Shown: positions 1 through 27,570 of the stretch, in pieces | Numbering within the stretch: position 1 is the first letter of the stretch | Layout of the letters: the number at the start of each line of letters is the position of its first letter | Origin: a virus | IMG/VR virus record: IMGVR_UViG_3300035698_016990 | Location: 1 to 30,664 of that record | Reading direction: 5' to 3' (one strand) | Length of the DNA stretch: 30,664 bases | Notes under the pieces: model-generated | Database searches by the model: none | Told to the model about the DNA's origin: nothing | The model's input: the letters and a program-made list of their open reading frames with translations, nothing else | Position numbers and translations under genes: made by a program

Positions 1-875
1 CAAGTTATGCATGGAATGTTCAAGGAACAACTAAATCTATATCTGAAGAAATGTCTGCAAGAGGGCATCAAGTTCTTGTTATTAATAGAAAGAAGATATC
101 TGAAATTTTACAACACATCGCAAAACACAAACCCAGCTGCATCTGGTTGGCGTCTTCAAATATCCTTATAGAACAATTTAAAAATAAAATCAAAATTCCA
201 GTTGTTGGATTTGGATTTTCTGATCCATATATTTTCACTACAGATAGATTCAAGTCATATGATATTTATGTGACCAATCATGAAGATACGATGAATAAAT
301 ATTCTTCAGTGATTCCAATGATTTATAACCCAACCGCTTGTGATTTGAAATTCCATAAAGACATGAAACTATCAAAAACAATTGATATATCATGCATTGG
401 TACTCTTAATCATCCAAGATTTAAAAACCCAAAAATGAGACCAAAAACAGTAAACAAATTAAGAGATGATGGGTTTTCAGTAGATGCTTATGGTATTGGA
501 TGGACAAAATTGGGTGGAACCCAAAACCATAAGCCCATCAATGGTCCTGAATTTCTTAGTGTCATAAACCAGAGCAAAATCGGGATTGACTTACAAGATC
601 TAGGTGCGCCACTCGCACATAGGATGCTTGAATATGGCGCATGCGGAACTCCTTGCATAACAAGAGACCGCCCAGAAGTATATAATTTATTTACGAAGGA
701 TGAGATACTAACCTATATAAATTATGAAGATTTAAAAGATAAATTAAAATATTACTTAAATCACGAAGAAGAATTGGAAAAATTTGGACAAAGACTAAAA
801 AATAGATGTAAAAAAGATCACAACATCACTAATAGAGTAAATCATTTACTAAAAGAACTTAAAAAATATGCTTAA
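1..875 (+). CDS. Glycosyltransferase, GT-B fold (5'-partial)
   Basis: The reading frame is open from the first bases of the window (first full codon at 3), so the true start lies upstream. An in-frame ATG at 51 is probably internal. The C-terminal half has the look of CgeB/Glyco_trans_1_2 enzymes: a segment ending 'SKIGIDLQD', then 'RMLEYGACGTPCITRDRPEV', which corresponds to the nucleotide-sugar-binding 'fE.mACG.p.it' region, and a C-terminal helical tail. It would transfer a sugar from an activated donor in the cytoplasm; donor and acceptor cannot be read from sequence. Its stop overlaps the next start by 8 bases (868-875), so the two are probably translationally coupled. The neighbouring pyruvyl-transferase-like gene suggests shared glycan synthesis. 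Family assignment is fairly sure, exact reaction unknown. Confidence 0.75.
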   Translation, partial: SYAWNVQGTTKSISEEMSARGHQVLVINRKKISEILQHIAKHKPSCIWLASSNILIEQFKNKIKIPVVGFGFSDPYIFTTDRFKSYDIYVTNHEDTMNKYSSVIPMIYNPTACDLKFHKDMKLSKTIDISCIGTLNHPRFKNPKMRPKTVNKLRDDGFSVDAYGIGWTKLGGTQNHKPINGPEFLSVINQSKIGIDLQDLGAPLAHRMLEYGACGTPCITRDRPEVYNLFTKDEILTYINYEDLKDKLKYYLNHEEELEKFGQRLKNRCKKDHNITNRVNHLLKELKKYA

Positions 876-1620
876 ATTAATCACATGTAAAGATGAAAAT
901 TGGGGCGATAAAGTTGGCCCCATAATTGCCAATCTTATATCTGGTCAAGACGTAGTTGAAGTGGGTCGCAAGTATAAACCAAAAACAGGCGAAACTCTAT
1001 ATGTTACTGTTGGTAGTATATTGAGTTGGGCACACTCAAGAACAGTGGTTTGGGGTGCTGGGTTTAGTGCAAAAAGCAGAATGGTTGTGAGCCCGCCGCA
1101 AAAAATTTGTGCCGTTCGCGGGCCGATGACAAGAAAAATATTAATAAATAACAACATAAAATGTCCGGAAATTTATGGTGATCCAGCATTATTATATAAA
1201 AATTATTATGATCCAAAAATAGATATCAAATATGATATTGGAATTATACCACACTATATTGACAAAAATTCAGAATGGGTTGCCACCAATAAATCAAAAA
1301 ACATAAACATAATAGACATAAGAAGTGGTATTAAAAATGTCGTAGATGAAGTCAAGAAGTGTAATGTAATATTATCCAGTTCACTGCATGGATTAATTAT
1401 TGCTGATACATATAATGTTAAATCTATATGGATAAAACTTTCTGATAAAGTTATTGGTAATGGTTTTAAATTTGTTGATTATTTTAAATCTGTTAAAAGA
1501 TCAACAGAAGAACCATTTATTATACACAATAACACCAAGATTGATGATATTAAATGTGATGATTATGAAATCGATATTGATATGGAAAGGTTGATGTCCG
1601 TATGTCCATTTCAACAATAA
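868..1620 (+). CDS. Polysaccharide pyruvyl transferase family protein
   Basis: This 250-residue protein carries the WcaK/PS_pyruv_trans pattern: an N-terminal 'NWGDKVGPIIANLI' segment, 'VGSI...VVWGAGF', 'CAVRGPMTRKIL', 'PEIYGDPALLY', 'IGIIPHYID' and 'VILSSSLHGLIIADTY'. Known members add a ketal-linked pyruvate to exopolysaccharide or cell-wall sugars, or are sugar-modifying relatives with GT-B-like folds. It starts inside the end of the upstream glycosyltransferase and its own end overlaps the next gene by 19 bases, which points to an operon. A second member of the same family lies on the opposite strand at 2492-3292. Substrate is unknown, and a non-pyruvyl activity is possible. Confidence 0.82.
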   Translation: MLKLITCKDENWGDKVGPIIANLISGQDVVEVGRKYKPKTGETLYVTVGSILSWAHSRTVVWGAGFSAKSRMVVSPPQKICAVRGPMTRKILINNNIKCPEIYGDPALLYKNYYDPKIDIKYDIGIIPHYIDKNSEWVATNKSKNINIIDIRSGIKNVVDEVKKCNVILSSSLHGLIIADTYNVKSIWIKLSDKVIGNGFKFVDYFKSVKRSTEEPFIIHNNTKIDDIKCDDYEIDIDMERLMSVCPFQQ

Positions 1621-2495
1621 CAAAGTGGCAATCAACTTTAGATGAAGACTTGACACAATACAAAGTTAAGCTTCTTTTTGGTTATACGGATTATACACCA
1701 GGTAGATATTTGCAAGATGCATTTAAAAGATGTGGTATTAAATTAGTAGACAAAAATGAAGATATTTCAATATGGATAGAAAGCCCCACCAAATCAGTAC
1801 CAAAAGAAATAAATAGTATGGGTGGCGCTAAAGTTTGTTGGATCCATCACGGAGCCAACATGTTAAATTGCAACTTAAAAATAATAAACAACATAAAACC
1901 AGATTTGGTTTTGATGTCTCACTCATTGTTTTTGGCGAAAAAAATTAATTACCCAACTGCATTTTTCCCATTTGGGGTTGACCCAATTTTTATCAAGAAA
2001 AATGACTGGAAGAATAGACCAATAGACATATCATTTGTTGGTAATGGCGGAAAGCGCATTAAAAACAAGACCTATATTAATAGATGTAAAATGATCGAAT
2101 CAGCTACAGATATTGCCAGAAAGATGGGTGCGAAAGTTGATTTTAACCGGAGAATTTTTAGAGAAAACATGGCAAATCTATATGCCAAATCAAAGATTGT
2201 CCTTAATCCCGTTCATGACACAATACCATCTATAAACATGAGATTATGGGAGACAATGGGTTGTGGAGCATTGTCTTTAACAGGACACGCTGATGATCAA
2301 GAATTATTGTTTGAAAATAATAAACATTTTAAAATAATAGATAATCTAAAAGAGAATATTAAGTGGGCTTTGGGTTCAGGAGAAGCTCAGAAAATTGCAA
2401 ACAAAGCCCAGGCTTGCGTTACAAAACATCACACATATAATCACAGAGTGCATCTAATATTTGATCTTCTTAGATCAATCAACAAATTAGATTAA
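1602..2495 (+). CDS. Glycosyltransferase, CgeB/Glyco_trans_1_2-like
   Basis: A 297-residue GT-B-type protein. The N-terminal half has a Rossmann-like 'KLLFGYTDYTPGRYLQDAF' opening and 'KVCWIHHGANM'. The C-terminal half has 'IDISFVGNGGKR', 'YAKSKIVLNP', then 'MRLWETMGCGALSLTGHADD', the expected acidic-residue/ACG donor-binding segment, and a C-terminal helix. The start at 1602 lies inside the preceding gene (19-base overlap), consistent with coupling. Its TAA stop overlaps the TAA stop of the opposite-strand gene within the tetramer TTAA at 2492-2495, so the two operons converge with no spacer. It probably acts with the adjacent pyruvyl-transferase homologue. Sugar specificity is unknown. Confidence 0.75.
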   Translation: MSISTITKWQSTLDEDLTQYKVKLLFGYTDYTPGRYLQDAFKRCGIKLVDKNEDISIWIESPTKSVPKEINSMGGAKVCWIHHGANMLNCNLKIINNIKPDLVLMSHSLFLAKKINYPTAFFPFGVDPIFIKKNDWKNRPIDISFVGNGGKRIKNKTYINRCKMIESATDIARKMGAKVDFNRRIFRENMANLYAKSKIVLNPVHDTIPSINMRLWETMGCGALSLTGHADDQELLFENNKHFKIIDNLKENIKWALGSGEAQKIANKAQACVTKHHTYNHRVHLIFDLLRSINKLD

Positions 2496-3292
2496 ATCCA
2501 TTTTTTATTTAGTTTATTAAACGGGCAATGATCTATAAGTTTTTGTAAGTCTAATTTTATCTCATTAGCTCTACAAGACTTTTTTAGTTTGTTTGTTTTT
2601 AAGATTTCTTCTTTAGTTAAATAGGTTGGCTTGTAGGTTTGAGCACCTATTGAATCAAAATAATCTAAATATTTAAACTCTTTTCCCTTAATTGATGGTA
2701 TCCCAGTAATAACTACCCACAAAGATGGAATTTGATAAGTATCAGCCAATATTAAACCATGCAATGATGAAGAAATAATTCTTTCACATCTGTTAATCTG
2801 ATTAACAACTTTTTGAAAACCTTGTTGAATATTAATATTCAACATGCCATCTGGCAATTCCCATTCAGAAACTTTTTTCCTATCAATAACATGCGGAATT
2901 ATTCCTAAGGAATATTCTTTTGTCTTTTTTGCTTTAAACATCATTGGACAAAGTAGCCCAGGATCACCATAAACTTCTGGACATTTTATTCCTTTTTTAA
3001 TTAGCCATTTTCTAGTTCTTGGCCCTCTGACAGCACAGACTTTTATTGGGTTTGCTTGTATGTTCCATCTTGGTGTTAAAACCGCAGAACCCCATACTAT
3101 TGTTGGAATTTTGACAAATGTCATGCTGCTGCCGCAGACTAAGTATGGCTTATCGGAAGATTTTATATTGCCTTCATTATTATTTACATTGGTTACTTTT
3201 TCACCAGAAAAAAACTCACCAATGAATGGGTTAATTGCATCACCAAAATTGCGAGTGGGTTTGCCATTATTAAGTGGCCAATAAACATACAT
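2492..3292 (-). CDS. Polysaccharide pyruvyl transferase family protein (second copy)
   Basis: A 266-residue homologue of the product of 868-1620, with the same ordered motifs: 'NFGDAINPFIGEFF', 'VWGSAVLTP', 'CAVRGPRTRKWLIKKGIKCP', 'EVYGDPGLLCP', 'LGIIPHVID', 'IISSSLHGLILADTYQIPSLW' and a late 'FKYLDYFDSIG'. The same 'FK(F/Y)(V/L)DYF' stretch is in the plus-strand copy, so the two are paralogs rather than chance family members. It is last in a minus-strand operon behind glycosyltransferase genes, with one base between it and the gene upstream. Predicted to modify a sugar on a phage or host glycan (inference). Confidence 0.82.
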   Translation of the reverse strand: MYVYWPLNNGKPTRNFGDAINPFIGEFFSGEKVTNVNNNEGNIKSSDKPYLVCGSSMTFVKIPTIVWGSAVLTPRWNIQANPIKVCAVRGPRTRKWLIKKGIKCPEVYGDPGLLCPMMFKAKKTKEYSLGIIPHVIDRKKVSEWELPDGMLNINIQQGFQKVVNQINRCERIISSSLHGLILADTYQIPSLWVVITGIPSIKGKEFKYLDYFDSIGAQTYKPTYLTKEEILKTNKLKKSCRANEIKLDLQKLIDHCPFNKLNKKWI

Positions 3293-3293
3293 G

Positions 3294-4328
3294 CTATTTT
3301 TTCCTATTCATTTTGAGTTGTTGAAGAGTCCTTCTTCTATGTTGTCCTGAACTGCCGTTACATGTCCTTATGAGATTTTCAAGTATTAAACCCATCGATA
3401 TGGCTCTGTTTTTGAAAGAAACATTATTTGCATTATCTATGGAACATTTACTAAAACTATTCCATGTCTTTTTATTGTTATATATTCTATCTACATAAAA
3501 ACACAAGTCATCAATAGTTTCTGTTTTTACTCCACTAAAACCAACATACGGAGTTAATGATTGTGGGATATGCCTATAAATTACTGGAGTACCAACTCCT
3601 TGAGCCTCAAGGGGCACCAAATAAAAGGTCTCATTAGTTTGTAAAGATATAAATAATCGAATAGATGGCAAAAATTTAGTGACAAATTCATTACCTGGAT
3701 TTACTATTTTTATACTTTTTGCTGGTGCGGGGCCAGATCCATATGTATAAAAGTCAATTTTTGAAAATGTTTTTATCAAAACATTAATGACTTTTTTTGT
3801 ATTATTCATATTATCATAAGGCGAGTGGCCACTAAATCTTTTATTAAGTGTTTTCAAGGTATGACCCAGGCATATTCCAGATCTTTCCGAGTATTTGGGA
3901 ATAGACGATAACGACGGCGACAGTATTGGTTTGGGTAATGATATATAATTAGTTCCCTTGAATTTGCCGAGACTTCCAAAAGTTCCATCCCAAATTGTAA
4001 AATATATATTCCCATAAGATAAATTTAATTTATTTAATCTTCTTATGTCTTTCGCGTCTTCATAACTATGCCGTATTAAAGATAGCGATAAAATTGGCGA
4101 CTTTGTGATTGTTCTTATTTTCTTATATATAGAGTCTTCTGTTGATGAATCTCCGCCAAGCATAATTAGATCAACATCTTTTAATTTATCCCACTCTATG
4201 CTGCTATCTCCCATTAAACAAACTTCCCAGTTTGGAGTTAATTGCAGCATTTTATCCCACAATATTGTGACTCTTTCCAGCCCAGTCATTCGTCTTTTTT
4301 TAACTCGTCCAATTATTGCACATTTCAT
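3294..4328 (-). CDS. Glycosyltransferase-like protein, GT-B type
   Basis: A 344-residue protein read from the ATG at 4328, which overlaps the stop of the upstream gene in a TAATG arrangement. An ATG five codons earlier exists, but the coupled start is more natural. The N-terminal half has 'VDLIMLGGDSSTEDSIYKKI', typical of a Rossmann half. The C-terminal half has 'IDFYTYGSG', 'FLPSIRLFISLQTNETFYLVP', then 'LEAQGVGTPVIYRHIPQSLTPYVGFSG', resembling the GT4 donor-site 'E..a.G.PVI' segment. The C-terminal tail is very basic (QHRRR...KMNRKK). Assignment is by fold pattern only; substrate unknown. Confidence 0.65.
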   Translation of the reverse strand: MKCAIIGRVKKRRMTGLERVTILWDKMLQLTPNWEVCLMGDSSIEWDKLKDVDLIMLGGDSSTEDSIYKKIRTITKSPILSLSLIRHSYEDAKDIRRLNKLNLSYGNIYFTIWDGTFGSLGKFKGTNYISLPKPILSPSLSSIPKYSERSGICLGHTLKTLNKRFSGHSPYDNMNNTKKVINVLIKTFSKIDFYTYGSGPAPAKSIKIVNPGNEFVTKFLPSIRLFISLQTNETFYLVPLEAQGVGTPVIYRHIPQSLTPYVGFSGVKTETIDDLCFYVDRIYNNKKTWNSFSKCSIDNANNVSFKNRAISMGLILENLIRTCNGSSGQHRRRTLQQLKMNRKK

Positions 4329-6733
4329 TAGTATACAGTCCATTTTCCAAAAGATTTAATTGTTTTAGTCTGTTTGTCCGCTGTTAATTTTTTTCCACAA
4401 ATTGAATTTTTTGCATTAGATCCTGGTATATCTTTCAACCATCCTGCCGGTCTAGCGACACAACGGAGACCGATTTTCTTTTTCTGAGCCAAAACACCAA
4501 ACCAAATGTCTGCCATATTTGGCGAATTAAAATGCTCTTTACAGACCTGTATTGTGTTAGAATGATAAGCAAGAGTTCCAGTTCCTAATATATGAACCCC
4601 AACATCTTTTAATTGTGCCGCTTTATAATGGAAACATTTGCGGCTTTTATAATAATTAATCATTGGTGTGTTTAATATGACTCCATGCACACCAACGCAA
4701 CATTTTTTGTTATATTGGTTGATCTTATCTATCATAGTGGACACATAATCTGATGGATATATTAAATCATCATCTACTGTAAATATATACCCCTTTGCTT
4801 GTGGAGCATAAAATTTGCCAACATCGCCCCTATCTCCAAGTTTCTTCCCCTCGAAAACAGTGATTCCGTTTTTGTTTAAAAAATCAGGAATTCCATCATA
4901 ATCATTGAGATATATATTGAGTTGATCGCATTGCCCAGCTAGAGAATTAACCACCGTTTTCAGAAATCCAGCTCGCTCTTTGATGCTGGCCATTGAAATG
5001 GTTATTTTAGTTTGTGCTGTTGATATTATTGGCTCGTGTTTTCTGAGATGAGCATGCATTTTGGATTGATGATCTTTATGCGCAACCAAAGTAGAACCAG
5101 GCTGATACATCGACATGGAAGATTTATTTAATCTTTCGCTAATCTGCGCTCCAACTCCACTTGATTTAGACGGATCTTTGATCCATCTAGATTTAGGTAC
5201 TGGATCAATTTTAAAATTCAATTTCTCAAAAAATCTGTTCTCACAGAAGAACATCATATCAACCCATCCAGAATTCCAATATGCACGTTGGTTAAATGTA
5301 ACTTCTCTGGGGTTCCTGCCAGACCAAACAACCTTACCTTTTCTGAGCTCATCTAATAATGGATTTATACAAATCTTTTTAGGATCTGATATGTTATTCC
5401 AATATGATATACATTTATCAAAAAATCCATTAACCAGGCGCACATCATCATCTAATTTAAGAAAGAAATGTGCCTTGCTATTTCTGACATCAGCAAATCC
5501 CTGATTTATCACCTGCCAATAATTCTGCTTACCATGATTTTTATCTAGTTTCTTATATGTTATGTTTAGATTTTTACTGTGTTTCTTTATAACCGCTCCA
5601 TAATTGGCTGAGCTGGCGTCATCATAAACATATATAAATATTTCATGTTTTGATTTATTCTTTTCAACATCAGAAAGTAATAGGCCAAGTAGATCTGGCC
5701 TATTATAAGAATTAATAATCATGTGTATTTTGGATGGATATATTTCAACTGGTGGGATATACATTCTAGCACTTTTGTTAACTGTATCAAAAACCTTTTT
5801 GGCTTTTCTAAGGATATTACCCTTATCTTCTTCTACTGTTTTCTCAGGGTAAATCTTAAAATAGGCATCAGCACCTTCTACATCATGAAACCCCGGTGGT
5901 TGTATGCCGCTTTTAGATATCCTATTTGACCAATCCACATGAGCCATTCCATATCTTGGGAATTTATGATCGTAGTATCCCACAAATTTAAACGCATCAT
6001 CATCAAATACCATAACTGCGCCCTGTGGTTTACCAACTATGGTTTTTATGGTTATTGACCCCACTTGTTTTGCTTTTTCATTTTTTAGGTTAGCACCATA
6101 TAGGCCATACTCTCTATAACAAAAATGATGATAATTGGTTTTTTGCATTACATTAAAATAAAATGTCTCCCATCCTTTTTTCTTGACTTCAACATCGTCA
6201 TTTAGAATCATTTTAAATCTGTATGGAATGAGAGCATGCAATAGATTATTGGTGTTATGTACCACGCCCTTGCGCTCTTTGTGGTCCAACAATGTAATCC
6301 AATCGACAGAACGTAGATATTTCTTAACTTTCTGATCTGTCGATTCATCACTAACAATTACATTGATACCATCTGGGCCATTCTTTTTTATCGATTCTAA
6401 AAGTCTTTTGACGCAATGTAATCTGTTACAAGATAGAATACCTATACCAATATTAGATATGGTAGGCATTATTGCAGCATTTTTGAGTTTTGGTGGCAAG
6501 GGTTTAGGTTTACGCCCCTGTGCTTTTCTATATTTCGTGTTTTTGCGTGGAATTCTACCTTTAGATAGCTTCTTTTTATCAAACTGTTCTACAAGTTTGA
6601 GATATTTAGGACAATATTTTAAAAAATACCTAGGAAGGATTATGCTCTGTCCCGGCAGGATTTTGATCACTTCCCTGCTCGGTCCCGACACCTGCACCGA
6701 GTGTTTGTTGTGGTTTATGAACGTGTACGTCAT
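4328..6733 (-). CDS. Three-domain glycosyltransferase (triple GT-A)
   Basis: An 801-residue protein with three GT-A (GT2-like) domains in series. Domain 1 (about 93-300) begins 'IGIGILSCNRL' and carries NDDVE at 178-182. Domain 2 (about 336-560) begins 'IHMIINSYNRPDLL' and carries LDDD at 427-430. Domain 3 (about 575-790) begins 'ITISMASIKERAGFL' and carries VDDDLIYP at 653-660. The acidic clusters fit metal/nucleotide-sugar-binding DxD motifs. Residues 1-50 form a small separate region with 'ILPGQSIILP', followed by a basic linker rich in Lys, Arg and Pro (52-86). Such multi-domain enzymes usually add different sugars in sequence. The 5' end overlaps the upstream gene by 104 bases; a later start at Met89 would remove that overlap but lose the N-terminal region. 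Acceptor is unknown. Confidence 0.8.
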   Translation of the reverse strand: MTYTFINHNKHSVQVSGPSREVIKILPGQSIILPRYFLKYCPKYLKLVEQFDKKKLSKGRIPRKNTKYRKAQGRKPKPLPPKLKNAAIMPTISNIGIGILSCNRLHCVKRLLESIKKNGPDGINVIVSDESTDQKVKKYLRSVDWITLLDHKERKGVVHNTNNLLHALIPYRFKMILNDDVEVKKKGWETFYFNVMQKTNYHHFCYREYGLYGANLKNEKAKQVGSITIKTIVGKPQGAVMVFDDDAFKFVGYYDHKFPRYGMAHVDWSNRISKSGIQPPGFHDVEGADAYFKIYPEKTVEEDKGNILRKAKKVFDTVNKSARMYIPPVEIYPSKIHMIINSYNRPDLLGLLLSDVEKNKSKHEIFIYVYDDASSANYGAVIKKHSKNLNITYKKLDKNHGKQNYWQVINQGFADVRNSKAHFFLKLDDDVRLVNGFFDKCISYWNNISDPKKICINPLLDELRKGKVVWSGRNPREVTFNQRAYWNSGWVDMMFFCENRFFEKLNFKIDPVPKSRWIKDPSKSSGVGAQISERLNKSSMSMYQPGSTLVAHKDHQSKMHAHLRKHEPIISTAQTKITISMASIKERAGFLKTVVNSLAGQCDQLNIYLNDYDGIPDFLNKNGITVFEGKKLGDRGDVGKFYAPQAKGYIFTVDDDLIYPSDYVSTMIDKINQYNKKCCVGVHGVILNTPMINYYKSRKCFHYKAAQLKDVGVHILGTGTLAYHSNTIQVCKEHFNSPNMADIWFGVLAQKKKIGLRCVARPAGWLKDIPGSNAKNSICGKKLTADKQTKTIKSFGKWTVY

Positions 6734-23546: not shown

Positions 23547-23958
23547 CATCGCTCCTGCTCTTATTCTCGCCAGTATTAAATTGTTTGCCGCATGGTTTTA
23601 ACATACCATAAAGCTGACTATTTAATCCTTTTGGAGAAGCATCAATACCGCCAGCAAGATTGGCACCCATACCCACACCCTTGCCACCACTGTCGCTACA
23701 ACAACCAGGTTTAGCTGAACCAGAAATAGCAACCGCAGTAAATGATTCGCCATTACCCTTATCGATAGATACCCTAGAAATATCAAGACCCTCTTCGCCA
23801 GCTGGTTCGGCCTCTCCATATTCTGGAGCGGATGAATTACCTGCAGCTATGAGTGGGGGATTATTGCTCAATACAGGACCAAACAGAGTGTGCTGTTTAC
23901 TACCAACAATCATATTTTGAGCAATATTTTGAATATCCCTGATTTCAATTTCTTTCAT
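23524..23958 (-). CDS. Hypothetical Gly/Ser-rich protein
   Basis: 144 residues, AAAGGGAGG upstream of the ATG at 23958. After a short helix ('MKEIEIRDIQNIAQNMIV') the chain is low complexity, rich in Gly, Ser, Ala and Asn ('GKGVGMGANLAGGIDASPKG'), with a 'PGCCSDSGG' segment. Probably extended or flexible, possibly a virion component. Not recognised. Middle gene of the minus-strand cluster 23271-24398. Confidence 0.55.
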   Translation of the reverse strand: MKEIEIRDIQNIAQNMIVGSKQHTLFGPVLSNNPPLIAAGNSSAPEYGEAEPAGEEGLDISRVSIDKGNGESFTAVAISGSAKPGCCSDSGGKGVGMGANLAGGIDASPKGLNSQLYGMLKPCGKQFNTGENKSRSDDEGNSQY

Positions 23959-23972
23959 GGGTCTACCTCCCT

Positions 23973-24398
23973 TTAAGATATTTTTGATCGGGCTTCTTTT
24001 AATTCCTTAATAACCCATGCATATTTCTCAAGGAAGTCAGAAATTGCGTCAGAGTATGTTGCAATTTTATTAAACCATTTATGATCGCGTATGTGCTTTT
24101 TTATGATTCCTAGCTCTATATTGGTAAGGGCATCGTCTGACTCACATTTATGAATCATTGTGCACAAAGCCAAATCGGATATGTCTGGTAATGGTTCTGT
24201 GACATCTTTATCACACTCTTTACAAAGAGCACACATTGCTTCTCTCATTATCCAAGCATATTTATTTATAAAATCCATAGTCGCTTCGTCGTCACTAGAT
24301 ATGTGATTACATTGTTTGTGCTCGCTAAGATGGTTTTTTATGAGATCTATCTCAACCGCTATAACTTGAGATGCGTATTTGCATTTTTCACATCTCAT
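23973..24398 (-). CDS. Protein with an internal duplication and Cys clusters
   Basis: 141 residues from the ATG at 24398, which has GGGGAG seven bases upstream; an ATG at 24413 lacks that. Residues about 15-53 ('EIDLIKNHLSEHK...MDFINKYAWIMRE') and about 95-133 ('ELGIIKKHIRDHK...SDFLEKYAWVIKE') are a clear internal repeat. CxxC at 3-6, a Cys cluster at 56, 59 and 62, and C79/C85 with nearby His suggest metal binding. First gene of a minus-strand operon, divergent from the zinc-ribbon/tmRNA unit. Function unknown. Confidence 0.62.
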   Translation of the reverse strand: MRCEKCKYASQVIAVEIDLIKNHLSEHKQCNHISSDDEATMDFINKYAWIMREAMCALCKECDKDVTEPLPDISDLALCTMIHKCESDDALTNIELGIIKKHIRDHKWFNKIATYSDAISDFLEKYAWVIKELKEARSKIS

Positions 24399-24415
24399 GC
24401 CGAATCTCCCCATGT

Positions 24416-24424
24416 TATATTTGA
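24416..24424 (+). promoter_or_regulatory. TATATTTGA intergenic nonamer, site 3
   Basis: TATATTTGA in the 61-base divergent gap between 24398 and 24460, upstream of the zinc-ribbon/tmRNA unit. A TATAAATG at 24448-24455 follows, four bases before the ATG. Candidate control region for both directions. Confidence 0.45.
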
Positions 24425-24459
24425 ATAATTGTAATTACTTTATATGTTATAAATGAATC

Positions 24460-24645
24460 ATGACAAATCTTACATTGAGGTGTATTGTATGTAAAACAGA
24501 AGAAAAAATAGACTTTGCGACACTAGGATTATACCAAGTAATGCAGGATATAATAAAAGAAAAAGGGTGGGAGTTGATCAAAACTACCGGTACTGAAGGT
24601 TATTGTTGCAAAAAATGTGGGCTAGATCAGGTATCGACTGGATAA
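24460..24645 (+). CDS. Small zinc-ribbon protein overlapping tmRNA
   Basis: 61 residues with two CxxC pairs ('RCIVCKTEE' and 'YCCKKCGLD'), a minimal zinc ribbon. No Shine-Dalgarno; TATAAATG lies just before the ATG, so the mRNA may be leaderless. The last 27 bases of the frame (24619-24645) are also the 5' end of the tmRNA, including the whole acceptor strand, so processing of the tmRNA must cut this message. A shortened relative of this frame follows the tmRNA at 25023. Confidence 0.6.
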   Translation: MTNLTLRCIVCKTEEKIDFATLGLYQVMQDIIKEKGWELIKTTGTEGYCCKKCGLDQVSTG

Positions 24646-24971
24646 GGAGGGATACAGCGGCGTGCCGAGGTTGATCGGTTGGCCTCGTAAAAAGCCGATC
24701 AAAACAACAACTGCCGACTTCGGTCAGCTCCGTCAAGCTGCCTAAACAGCTCGACCCAGAAAGCGATAAGGTAGCAGCGTAATCGTTAGTACGGCCACTA
24801 CTCTGCTAAGGCAAGATTTGGAATTGTCAGGGCATATCTTGCCAAGATTACTCTGACAGACAAGCCCGGAAAGACGGGCAAACGGTTGTTGATGACCGAA
24901 ATATCAACTACGCACGTAGAGACTGTTTTCTAATTTATCGCAGGACCGGAGTTCGATTCTCCGCTGGTCCA
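24619..24971 (+). ncRNA. ssrA: Transfer-messenger RNA (tmRNA)
   Basis: The tRNA-like part folds fully: acceptor strands GGGCTAG (24619-24625) and CTGGTCC (24964-24970) pair over 7 bp with a G3-U pair, the alanine identity signal, and A73 follows; CCA is not encoded. The T arm is CGGAG-TTCGATT-CTCCG (24947-24963). The tmRNA D-region 'GGTATCGACTGG' and the conserved 'GCCGAGG...GGCCTCGTAAAAAGCCG' are present. PK1 pairs CGAGG/CCTCG and GATCGG/CCGATC (24666-24700). Further pseudoknots are GGCAAGAT/ATCTTGCC with TGTCAG/CTGACA (24810-24858), and CGGT/ACCG with GTTGAT/ATCAAC (24883-24908). It rescues stalled ribosomes with SmpB and tags the product; no smpB is in the window, so host SmpB is expected. 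About 353 bases, normal size. Confidence 0.96.
24713..24745 (+). other. tmRNA tag reading frame (ADFGQLRQAA)
   Basis: Twelve bases after PK1 a resume codon GCC opens the frame GCC GAC TTC GGT CAG CTC, then CGT CAA GCT GCC TAA, giving ADFGQLRQAA. The Ala-Ala end is what ClpXP-type proteases need; the usual penultimate Leu-Ala-Ala is Gln-Ala-Ala here. The other two frames have no suitable short stop. Confidence 0.85.
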
Positions 24972-24979
24972 AACACTAA

Positions 24980-25017
24980 CGCCTCCACTTCCACCCAAAT
25001 ATAAGGAAGTGGAGGCG
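24980..25017 (+). other. 13-bp inverted repeat after tmRNA
   Basis: A perfect stem CGCCTCCACTTCC/GGAAGTGGAGGCG (24980-24992 and 25005-25017) with a 12-base loop starts nine bases after the tmRNA end. There is no T run. The right arm contains GGAGG, seven bases before the ATG at 25023, so the stem would hide that ribosome site; it may also protect or help trim the tmRNA 3' end. Confidence 0.75.
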
Positions 25018-25022
25018 ATAAT

Positions 25023-25094
25023 ATGAAAATAAAGAGTAAATGTATTGAGTGTAATGATAAATTTGAAACAGGCTTGCTGATATTGGGTACCTAA
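25023..25094 (+). pseudogene. Truncated zinc-ribbon remnant
   Basis: A 23-codon frame beginning MKIKSKCIECNDKFETG resembles the start of the 24460 product (LRCIVCKTEEKIDF) in protein and in DNA (TGTATTG then GTGTAA). It stops at 25092-25094 with only one CxxC, so a complete zinc ribbon cannot form. Best read as the decayed first gene of a duplicated zinc-ribbon/tmRNA unit, though a genuine mini-protein cannot be excluded. Confidence 0.45.
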
Positions 25095-25130
25095 CAATCA
25101 AAAATGATAAATTCCACACATAGCATGCGA

Positions 25131-25151
25131 CGATTCCCCGCTGGTCCACCA
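25131..25151 (+). repeat. Partial copy of tmRNA 3' end, with CCA
   Basis: CGATTCCCCGCTGGTCCA at 25131-25148 matches 24954-24971 of the tmRNA in 17 of 18 bases (T-loop end, T-stem strand, acceptor strand), and is followed by CCA, which the full tmRNA lacks. The sequence to its left shows no T-stem partner or tRNA body, so it is a fragment. Confidence 0.85.
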
Positions 25152-25162
25152 ATACATTTTCA

Positions 25163-25191
25163 GCCTCCAGTATTTAACTGGAGGCTTTTTT
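25163..25191 (+). terminator. Rho-independent terminator
   Basis: An 8-bp stem GCCTCCAG/CTGGAGGC (25163-25170 and 25178-25185) with a 7-base loop is followed by six T. It ends the zinc-ribbon/tmRNA transcription unit. Its left arm shares GCCTCCA with the inverted repeat at 24980. Confidence 0.93.
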
Positions 25192-25203
25192 ATTGGAGAT
25201 ATG

Positions 25204-25728
25204 ATGAAATTGGGGATATTATCAGAAGAAAATAATCCAACAGAAGATATGGTCAGTCGTTTTGAAAAAAGAACAAAAGATCATATAGATAAAGTCGCAG
25301 CTAATATGTCCAAAGTGGCGACTAATACTGACTACCAGGATTTAGAGGAGAGAGGCAAGGAACACGACGCATCGAAATACGATGATTACGAAAAAACACC
25401 ATATATTTGGTTAACCGAATATCATAAATTTAAAAATGAAGGAAAAGATTTTCAATATCCCCCAGGAATTGAAGAAAAAGTCGATTCTGCCACTGGCCAC
25501 CATGTTGAAACAAATCTTCATCATCCAGAGGCACACCAAAACATTGAAGACATGGCCGATATAGATATTATAGAAATGGTGTGTGATTGGACAGCTATGT
25601 CTCAAGAGCTTGACCAAGATGACGGAAGCGCCAAGGAGTGGGCTGATAAAAATATTGGCAAGAAATGGAAGTTCACCAGTAACCAAGTTGACTTAATATA
25701 TGAAATAATTGACGTATTGGATTCATAA
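25204..25728 (+). CDS. DUF5662-like protein
   Basis: 174 residues from the ATG at 25204, five bases after GGAG; the ATG one codon earlier is too close to it. A His-rich core 'GHHVETNLHHPEAHQNIEDMADIDIIEMVCDWTAMSQE' with an earlier 'KEHDASKY' resembles phage DUF5662 proteins, which have spaced His/Asp that could bind metal like HD-type hydrolases. The C-terminal 'KKWKFTSNQVDLIYEIIDVL' matches their usual end. Starts right after the tmRNA-unit terminator and couples to the next gene (TAATG). Enzymatic role is not established. Confidence 0.7.
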   Translation: MKLGILSEENNPTEDMVSRFEKRTKDHIDKVAANMSKVATNTDYQDLEERGKEHDASKYDDYEKTPYIWLTEYHKFKNEGKDFQYPPGIEEKVDSATGHHVETNLHHPEAHQNIEDMADIDIIEMVCDWTAMSQELDQDDGSAKEWADKNIGKKWKFTSNQVDLIYEIIDVLDS

Positions 25729-25952
25729 TGCTTAAAATCGCATTCAAACCATGGTATTTTAAAAGAGTGAATAAACCCGCACCAACCCCATTCCAAGTAT
25801 TATATGAATGTAAATGCGGATGTATCACGATTAATTATCAAACTAGAACCTCCATACCATTCAAGATAAAATGTGACAAATGTGAATGGAAAGACAGAAT
25901 AAACATAGAGGAAAATAAATGCATATCGCAGGATTTAAAGAATCAAGCCTAA
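25728..25952 (+). CDS. Small zinc-ribbon protein
   Basis: 74 residues. Cys spacing 'YECKCGCITI' then 'KCDKCEWKDR' gives a likely four-Cys zinc ribbon. Starts in a TAATG overlap with the previous gene and overlaps the radical-SAM gene by 34 bases, so the three are one translational run. Function unknown; nucleic acid or protein binding are possible. Confidence 0.6.
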   Translation: MLKIAFKPWYFKRVNKPAPTPFQVLYECKCGCITINYQTRTSIPFKIKCDKCEWKDRINIEENKCISQDLKNQA

Positions 25953-26617
25953 ATGAATGGGAAGGTCGCGTTTCTTCAATTATCTGGACGGCCGGGTGTA
26001 ACTGGAAATGTTCATATTGCCATGCCAAACACCTCATCTTAGAACCCGATAAAATTGAGCGAATAGAAGAAGAGGTGGTTTTTAAGTACATTAAAGATAA
26101 AAAAGGTTGGATAGATGGTTTATGTATTAGTGGTGGCGAACCAACTTTACAACCAGATCTAATAGATTTTATTATGAGAGTCAGAGAAGAATTAAATGTG
26201 GCTATTAAACTAGAAACTAATGGATCGAAACCAGATGTCATACGTAAATTAATAAAGGACAATCTTATAGAATGTTTGTGTCTTGATTTTAAACAATTAC
26301 CATCCAAACTTTTATTTGTAAATAATCAAGCAGGCAATTTGTTTGAGGTGCTTGATAGCTTCAATATAGCATTTAAGGCCGATATGGAGGTAGAATTCCA
26401 CACCACCTTATGCCCTGCGTTTATAGATTTACATTCTATTAAAGAAATGGGTGAATTTTTGCACAATAAGGGAATGTGGGTTCTGCAACAATATGACGCG
26501 TCCGAGACACTAATCCCAGATAAAGCAGGCAGTAAGGTATATTCTGAAGAAGGGGTTACGGAATTATATCAAGAAGCTCAAAAATACCACAATAATGTAA
26601 TCTTAAAAAACATGTAA
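25919..26617 (+). CDS. Radical SAM activase, NrdG2-like
   Basis: 232 residues with GAGGAAAA before the ATG. The N-terminus 'IAGFKESSLNEWEGRVSSIIWTAGCNWKCSYCHAKHL' has the radical SAM CxxxCxxC cluster ligands C27, C31 and C34. 'GLCISGGEPTLQPDL' (68-81) and 'IKLETNGSKPDVIRKLI' follow the pattern of the second type of anaerobic ribonucleotide reductase activator (NrdG2), which uses a 4Fe-4S cluster and S-adenosylmethionine to make a glycyl radical on NrdD. No NrdD or other glycyl-radical enzyme is in the window. Related activases or deazaguanine-pathway enzymes are alternatives. Radical SAM identity is sure, the partner is not. Confidence 0.82.
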   Translation: MHIAGFKESSLNEWEGRVSSIIWTAGCNWKCSYCHAKHLILEPDKIERIEEEVVFKYIKDKKGWIDGLCISGGEPTLQPDLIDFIMRVREELNVAIKLETNGSKPDVIRKLIKDNLIECLCLDFKQLPSKLLFVNNQAGNLFEVLDSFNIAFKADMEVEFHTTLCPAFIDLHSIKEMGEFLHNKGMWVLQQYDASETLIPDKAGSKVYSEEGVTELYQEAQKYHNNVILKNM

Positions 26618-26838: not shown

Positions 26839-27570
26839 ATGAAAAGATTAATCATATCTTTATTACTTCTGTTCCTATTCGGCTGCGAACAAATTGATCA
26901 TGTGTTGGTACCAGGAATACCATCTGAAAAACCCCAAAAATCCCAAGAGGAATTTAAAGTAGAAAAAGTAGAACCAATAGGAGAATTGGTTAAAGAAAGA
27001 TCCGGCATAGTACATGTAAAATTTGATGGTGGTATGTCATATTCTATTGGAACTGGATTCTTTGTGGTATATAAAAATAATAAATATTTATTGACCGCAG
27101 GCCACAATGTGATCGGTGCCGGTAGGGTGTTTGTGTTCCGCGATAGTGGATCAATTGAAGTGAATATATTAAAACATAAGATATCTAGAGAAGATGACTT
27201 GGCAGCATTTATAGTGGAAACAAAAGAAAACTGTTTCGAATTAGAAGACCCAAAAATATTTGATGGTATACCAGATTTTGGCAAATTATATAAACCAAAT
27301 AACTACAAAGTAGTAAAAGTTAACATGTTTGGATATCCAGCAGAATGGAATTTCAGAAAAATAAGTGGAGAAATCTATCAAACAATTTTTGACGGTAAAT
27401 ATTTGGTTTGCACCGGAAAATGCGATAGTGGAATGTCTGGCGGGCCTTGGTTTAATAAAGAAACTGGGAAGGTGGTTGCTGTACATTCGACACAAATTTC
27501 TGGAAAATCAGGTGGTATATCAGTTAAAGCCATCATAAGCCTTCTTGATAAAATGGAGAATGGCAAATGA
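26839..27570 (+). CDS. Lipoprotein trypsin-like serine protease
   Basis: 243 residues with TAAGGAA before the ATG. Residues 1-15 are a signal peptide (MKRLIISLLLLFLFG) and Cys16 a lipobox cysteine (LFGC, slightly atypical), so it should be membrane-anchored outside the cytoplasmic membrane. The chymotrypsin-fold triad is visible: His89 in 'LLTAGHN', Asp120 in 'SREDDLAAF' and Ser200 in 'CDSGMSGGPWF'. Residues about 28-50 are a charged linker. Substrate unknown; an exported protease from a phage could process envelope proteins or act in lysis or superinfection control (inference). It overlaps the next gene by ATGA. Confidence 0.85.
   Translation: MKRLIISLLLLFLFGCEQIDHVLVPGIPSEKPQKSQEEFKVEKVEPIGELVKERSGIVHVKFDGGMSYSIGTGFFVVYKNNKYLLTAGHNVIGAGRVFVFRDSGSIEVNILKHKISREDDLAAFIVETKENCFELEDPKIFDGIPDFGKLYKPNNYKVVKVNMFGYPAEWNFRKISGEIYQTIFDGKYLVCTGKCDSGMSGGPWFNKETGKVVAVHSTQISGKSGGISVKAIISLLDKMENGK

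Follow-up and report, generated by a model that had tools for sequence, protein, structure and literature searches.

A tmRNA (ssrA) gene on an uncultured phage contig raises the question of whether the phage copy is a complete molecule that could act in ribosome rescue, and of what its tag, ADFGQLRQAA, would mean for the proteins that receive it. Phage tmRNAs are already established, so the kind of gene is known (PMC9004378). Hudson and colleagues described tmRNA in Bacillus phage G and in nine mycobacteriophages, one of them with a TLD only (PMC4131195), a 2022 survey counted it in 402 of 18,146 phage genomes (PMC9004378), and both huge phages (PMC7162821) and virulent Bradyrhizobium elkanii phages (PMC12656738) are carriers too.

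Phage context of the tmRNA gene

The window, by which we mean the whole stretch of DNA analysed, is an entire IMG/VR record, 30,664 bases long, which covers part of the genome of a T4-like phage. It encodes a terminase large subunit (phrog_2), a T4-type portal (phrog_213) and a UvsW-type helicase (phrog_16), as well as a dUTPase and glycosyltransferases. The portal reaches no more than about 36% identity with those of cultured or named phages and has 143 relatives among viral contigs, of which the closest, L016 to L018, are syntenic with much of the window. By blastn, window positions 23793-23988 correspond to L017 6672-6867 and positions 25919-26181 to L017 6886-7148, and these flanking matches therefore define what lies between, tmRNA included, as a segment that L017 is without (Table 1). 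Since this closest relative does not carry the tmRNA, the phage group can do without the gene. Judged from its surroundings, the tmRNA sits in the phage genome and not in flanking host DNA, because terminase, portal and helicase are on the same record and synteny is found on both sides of the segment. The G+C content of the tmRNA is 50%, that of the rest of the segment 35% and that of the window 36%. For a QueE-like neighbour only distant loci were found, all without tmRNA.

SmpB (PF01668) was absent from the record and from 12 other phage records, several of them with tmRNA, in searches where bacterial controls were positive; the host's SmpB therefore presumably serves, the record being a fragment in whose missing part an SmpB gene could sit.

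Several further observations concern the window and its closest relative. A 146-aa protein of two similar halves (23973-24413, minus strand) sits at one edge of the stretch that L017 is without; it has a weak match to an HNH endonuclease family (E 0.0033) and might be a relic of whatever moved the segment. A lipoprotein-like trypsin-family protease is encoded at window 26839-27570 (PF13365, E 8.3e-11), and upstream of the head genes, in window 1-6733, is a cluster of glycosyltransferase-like and polysaccharide-pyruvyl-transferase-like ORFs, one of which phrog_2456 supports. The portal ORF of L017 (227-2140) begins with a stretch that differs from the portal of the window; this stretch closes with ...YDIEVPDHYCFAAGTDKSWVIVHNC and resembles the C-terminus of an intein or Hint domain.

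Structure of the tmRNA and its 3' flank

The only RNA gene that ARAGORN called in the window was a one-piece tmRNA. The Rfam model RF00023 matched 24619-24972 at 117.8 bits (E 1e-45, gathering score 47) and was covered end to end, at model positions 1-374, with no truncation; no other Rfam family reached its gathering score in the window. The initial annotation had proposed such a covariance-model search as a check on its call, and the whole-model match bears the call out. The folding energy of the tmRNA strand was below that of all 100 dinucleotide shuffles (z -3.0).

Paired by hand, the acceptor stem P1 (GGGCUAG/CUGGUCC) closes at 7 of 7 pairs, G3-U70 included, and the T-stem at 5 of 5. The discriminator A is followed by AAC (GGUCCA-AAC), so that CCA is not encoded in the tmRNA. 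Covariation was assessed in 62 aligned tmRNAs from phages and Planctomycetota: P1 is paired in 90% of cells, with double changes at 4 of its 7 pairs, the T-stem in 99%, with double changes at all five, and the two PK1 helices, complete in the window (5/5 and 10/10 pairs), in 100% and 78% of cells among relatives. Judging from this alignment, P1, the T-stem, PK1 and inner P2 are maintained by compensating changes, despite only ~62-69% identity to the nearest relatives. The helices of PK2 to PK4 are paired in 36-50% of cells in the same alignment, which is too loose in that region to weigh for or against them.

Pairing and covariation thus uphold the tRNA-like domain with a G3-U pair described in the initial annotation, and PK1 with it; the count of two further H-type pseudoknots has to be corrected, as three (PK2, PK3 and PK4) pair. 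The ten-codon tag frame with its Ala-Ala-stop end was recovered on retranslation (GCC GAC TTC GGT CAG CTC CGT CAA GCT GCC TAA). Like the one-piece tmRNAs of RF00023, the window tmRNA spans the whole model, with G3-U in its TLD, P2, PK1 to PK4 and a tag that starts with Ala and ends Ala-Ala-stop; it differs in its unusual acceptor, in the lack of an encoded CCA and in the QAA end of the tag. It is well supported that this is a complete phage-encoded tmRNA, one that would be able to act in trans-translation.

Table 1. Coordinates of the tmRNA, its parts and its surroundings in the window
Feature	Position	Strand	Details
1.93-kb segment holding the tmRNA	23989-25918		absent from L017 (18 bp there); blastn
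61-aa ORF, two CxxC motifs, zinc-ribbon-like	24460-24645	+	27-nt overlap with the tmRNA
One-piece tmRNA (ssrA) gene, 353 nt, without encoded CCA	24619-24971	+	ARAGORN, Rfam RF00023
Acceptor stem P1, 5' strand, GGGCTAG	24619-24625	+	pairs with 24964-24970 (CTGGTCC)
P2 outer, 5' strand	24641-24645 with 24935-24939	+	71% of cells paired in alignment
P2 inner, 5' strand	24660-24665 with 24912-24917	+	97% of cells paired, double changes at 5/6 pairs
PK1	24666-24702	+	24666-24670/24683-24687 and 24671-24680/24693-24702
Tag reading frame	24713-24745	+	resume codon GCC, ADFGQLRQAA, stop TAA
PK2	24762-24808	+	24762-24767/24782-24787 (6/6 pairs); 24772-24777/24803-24808 (6/6)
PK3	24810-24858	+	24810-24817/24836-24843 (8/8 pairs); 24825-24830/24853-24858 (6/6)
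PK4	24883-24908	+	24883-24886/24895-24898 (4/4 pairs); 24888-24893/24903-24908 (6/6)
T-arm (CGGAG TTCGATT CTCCG) and 3' acceptor strand	24947-24970	+	RF00023, hand pairing
Putative second tmRNA or tRNA-Ala 3' end, CGATTCCCCGCTGGTCCACCA, with CCA	25131-25151	+	17/18 identical to 24954-24971
Strong intrinsic terminator with T-run (stem 10 bp, loop 5 bases)	25162-25191	+	10 bases past the second 3' end
DUF5662 protein, downstream of tmRNA in the same segment	25201-25728	+	PF18907, E 6.6e-30

The last 18 nt of the tmRNA, CGATTCTCCGCTGGTCCA, recur at 25131-25148 with one change and are there followed by CCA. This second 3' end lies 177 bp downstream of the tmRNA without any 5' part, and no Rfam model scored above threshold at it; the flanks of the two 3' ends align on into the start of a GCCTCCA stem that both have. 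It looks like an original tmRNA or tRNA-Ala gene end that recombination at the 3' terminus displaced or left behind, and may alternatively be the relic of a collapsed second copy. A tandem duplication of the zinc-ribbon ORF together with the tmRNA was rejected, since shuffled versions of the ORF part scored just as well in 148 of 500 cases for DNA and 142 of 1000 for protein; the duplication is therefore confined to the 3' end and the first part of the stem behind it. The idea that the 3' half was swapped in from a phage tRNA-Ala was also dropped, as the 26-nt identity of the 3' part to tRNA-Ala of other phages stems mostly from the search pattern and base pairing.

Directly 3' of the tmRNA, at 24977-25020, lies an inverted repeat whose two 16-bp arms match almost perfectly around a loop of 12 bases, terminator-like and without a T-run. 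No prominent promoter was found upstream: sigma-70-like sites number 5 against 3.6 expected, and TATAAATG at 24448 belongs to an excess that is itself weak. The 61-aa ORF on this side, with a weak, sub-threshold match to PF08421 (E 0.034), has its last 27 nt inside the 5' end of the tmRNA, and its message therefore overlaps the tmRNA.

The tag ending and the nearest relatives

The initial annotation called the tag unusual, which holds for the exact peptide and less so for its ending. Searched as an all-codon pattern, ADFGQLRQAA had 0 matches in 2.9 million viral contigs and 84,980 genomes, scans that leave out the record's own source. QAA closes 15 of about 1,240 tags in the ARAGORN dictionary, where the bacteria with this natural ending include Bradyrhizobium, Nitrobacter and Rhodopseudomonas. 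The tag is rare, not unprecedented.

Its end does differ from those of its nearest bacterial kin, the Planctomycetota, whose 101 tags with an ARAGORN call end in LAA (67) or MAA (31), with FAA, YAA and IAA once each, and include none with a polar residue, Q or other, before AA. Compared with 66 distinct phage tags, in a comparison where the phage hosts belong to more than one phylum, some tags are non-independent through kinship and the phage-tag parser favoured frames ending in AA and so undercounted other endings, LAA or MAA closes 37 of 66 phage tags against 98 of 101 (p 4e-11), a polar residue precedes AA in 7 against 0 (Fisher p 0.0012), and 8 phage tags end other than in AA (p 0.0005). 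The polar endings are QAA three times (the window tmRNA and the large phages L425 and L445) and NAA, KAA, RAA and HAA once each; a further 6 tags end in AAA. Tags of up to 34 residues occur among phage tmRNAs, many of which are on contigs of 100-260 kb, and the endings seen among them include QAA, NAA, KAA, RAA, HAA, AAA, ALV and AVA. In L295 (IMGVR_UViG_3300011417_000010) and L484 the tag frames pass an internal AA or AN and run to odd ends (AKNDEFDVPFDLVVAAGFGGGPSARAWN; AKNEEFDVPFDLIVANGFGVGHGVRALA), where a possible Ala-Ala degron would be buried or lost.

Complete tmRNA genes are likewise known from phage G, from the mycobacteriophages Bxz1 and Wildcat, from the marine phage Melnitz and from huge phages (PMC4131195, PMC9004378, PMC7162821). 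Set beside Melnitz, with its two-piece tmRNA and glutamine riboswitch, the molecule described here is in one piece; the phage G tag ends in QVA and that of Bxz1 in ALV, both departing from LAA, whereas ours, from an uncultured T4-like fragment, ends in QAA. The phage tmRNA of L425 (IMGVR_UViG_3300033144_005525, 191 kb; tag ANDNVDSVELVAQAA) shares the QAA end but differs in tag body and acceptor, and no common neighbouring genes were found. Three portal relatives, 146, 320 and 395 kb in size, gave above-threshold matches to RF00023, and the PK1 pattern was present in 95 viral contigs, many longer than 100 kb. A DNA search of INPHARED returned no match for the window tmRNA or L266 and four partial matches for L294.

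As to origin, no more than 20 stretches in the genome collection contain a 5' motif of the window tmRNA, and most of these are Planctomycetota; motif GGUAUCGAC is common to the window and to tmRNAs of that phylum such as L220 (isolate SZUA-567) and L234, and the PK1 hairpin is near-identical to that of SZUA-567. The best bacterial DNA match is also from Planctomycetota, at 69% over tmRNA positions 12-344. Planctomycetota tmRNAs have the acceptor GGGGGCG/CGCCUCC and LAA or MAA tags, in contrast to GGGCUAG/CUGGUCC and QAA here. In a tree of 52 rows the window tmRNA is nested in Planctomycetota, grouped at 99/95 with L234 and L265, the latter a viral contig and not a bacterium, and at 95/90 within a larger group. 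In a tree of 62 rows with more phage sequences, its nearest neighbour is the phage tmRNA of L425 in a phage-only group (96/71), and it falls in no well-supported set. A Planctomycetota host would be no more than a reasonable guess from these likenesses. A QAA pattern search of 392 Planctomycetota genomes was set aside, the pattern being far too unspecific.

Ribosome rescue, tag fate and rival readings

We consider it probable that this is a functional one-piece phage tmRNA working in rescue. The transcript would be trimmed and receive its CCA from the host CCA-adding enzyme, the host AlaRS would charge it with alanine by way of G3-U70, and host SmpB would take up the alanylated molecule. It would then enter ribosomes stalled on broken mRNA, stalls that should be common as a lytic phage degrades host mRNA. 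On reading ADFGQLRQAA the ribosome would terminate, and the pool of ribosomes would stay available to the phage, the presumed benefit. Tagged fragments, which still end in Ala-Ala, would probably be degraded, perhaps more slowly than with LAA or MAA. The E. coli tag has LAA as its critical end, with degradation slowed by AAV and ClpX binding reduced to a minimum by DAS (PMC9382460), and from these precedents Q might plausibly alter the rate.

The same shift in tag ends could be read more boldly, the phage tag reprogramming the fate of rescued proteins. A polar residue before Ala-Ala would weaken recognition by the host ClpXP, a step we think rather doubtful, and it is no more than a tentative suggestion that tagged proteins, phage proteins among them, would then survive or pass to another protease. 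The seven polar endings in phages against none in Planctomycetota point this way, as do the eight phage tags not ended in AA and the phage G and Bxz1 tags, which also lie away from LAA. Yet QAA is natural in several bacteria, Bradyrhizobium, Nitrobacter and Rhodopseudomonas among them, so the tag need not escape ClpXP; moreover, the phage set is not limited to hosts of the Planctomycetota, more than half of it (37/66) retains LAA or MAA, and drift under relaxed selection would give the same picture.

A host ssrA copy without function, captured or decaying and now drifting, which came in by transfer or with an element integrating at the 3' end of a tmRNA, is a reading that we regard as improbable. 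An insertion at the 3' end of a tmRNA would leave just such a CCA-bearing second end as lies 177 bp downstream, L017 is without the whole segment, and the Rfam score of 117.8 is below most of those in Planctomycetota, which run from roughly 147 to 198 among the matches listed. Against a decaying copy, however, the helices are intact with compensating changes, the reading frame of the tag is uninterrupted and has a proper end, the nearest neighbour in the wider tree is another phage tmRNA, and open-frame tmRNAs occur in many phages. Very unlikely, in our judgement, is a decoy that titrates host SmpB and so shuts down host trans-translation. A TLD-only molecule is known from mycobacteriophage DS6A and such RNA can inhibit tmRNA (PMC4131195), but a decoy would have no need of the mRNA-like domain, tag and pseudoknots that are all present here. 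A working rescue tmRNA thus remains the reading that we prefer.

The gene is real, and its sole slightly out-of-ordinary feature is the label it adds, which is rare but not unique. As a single gene it is one addition to several hundred recorded phage tmRNAs; new here are the segment missing from L017, the second CCA-bearing 3' end with its terminator, and the absence of SmpB from the fragment. Its comparative use lies in pointing to a wide set of phages with shifted tag C-termini, uncultured and in many cases very large. It is conceivable, if on balance unlikely, that phage tmRNAs as a group have tags whose C-termini depart from the host LAA/MAA degron, with ADFGQLRQAA as one instance. A polar residue before AA, an AAA end or an end without AA might, on this speculative account, mean that the rescue half of the function is kept while the protein-destruction half is weakened or redirected. 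Such a set makes testable the question of which of the two, rescue or tag, is the reason for a phage to carry a tmRNA.
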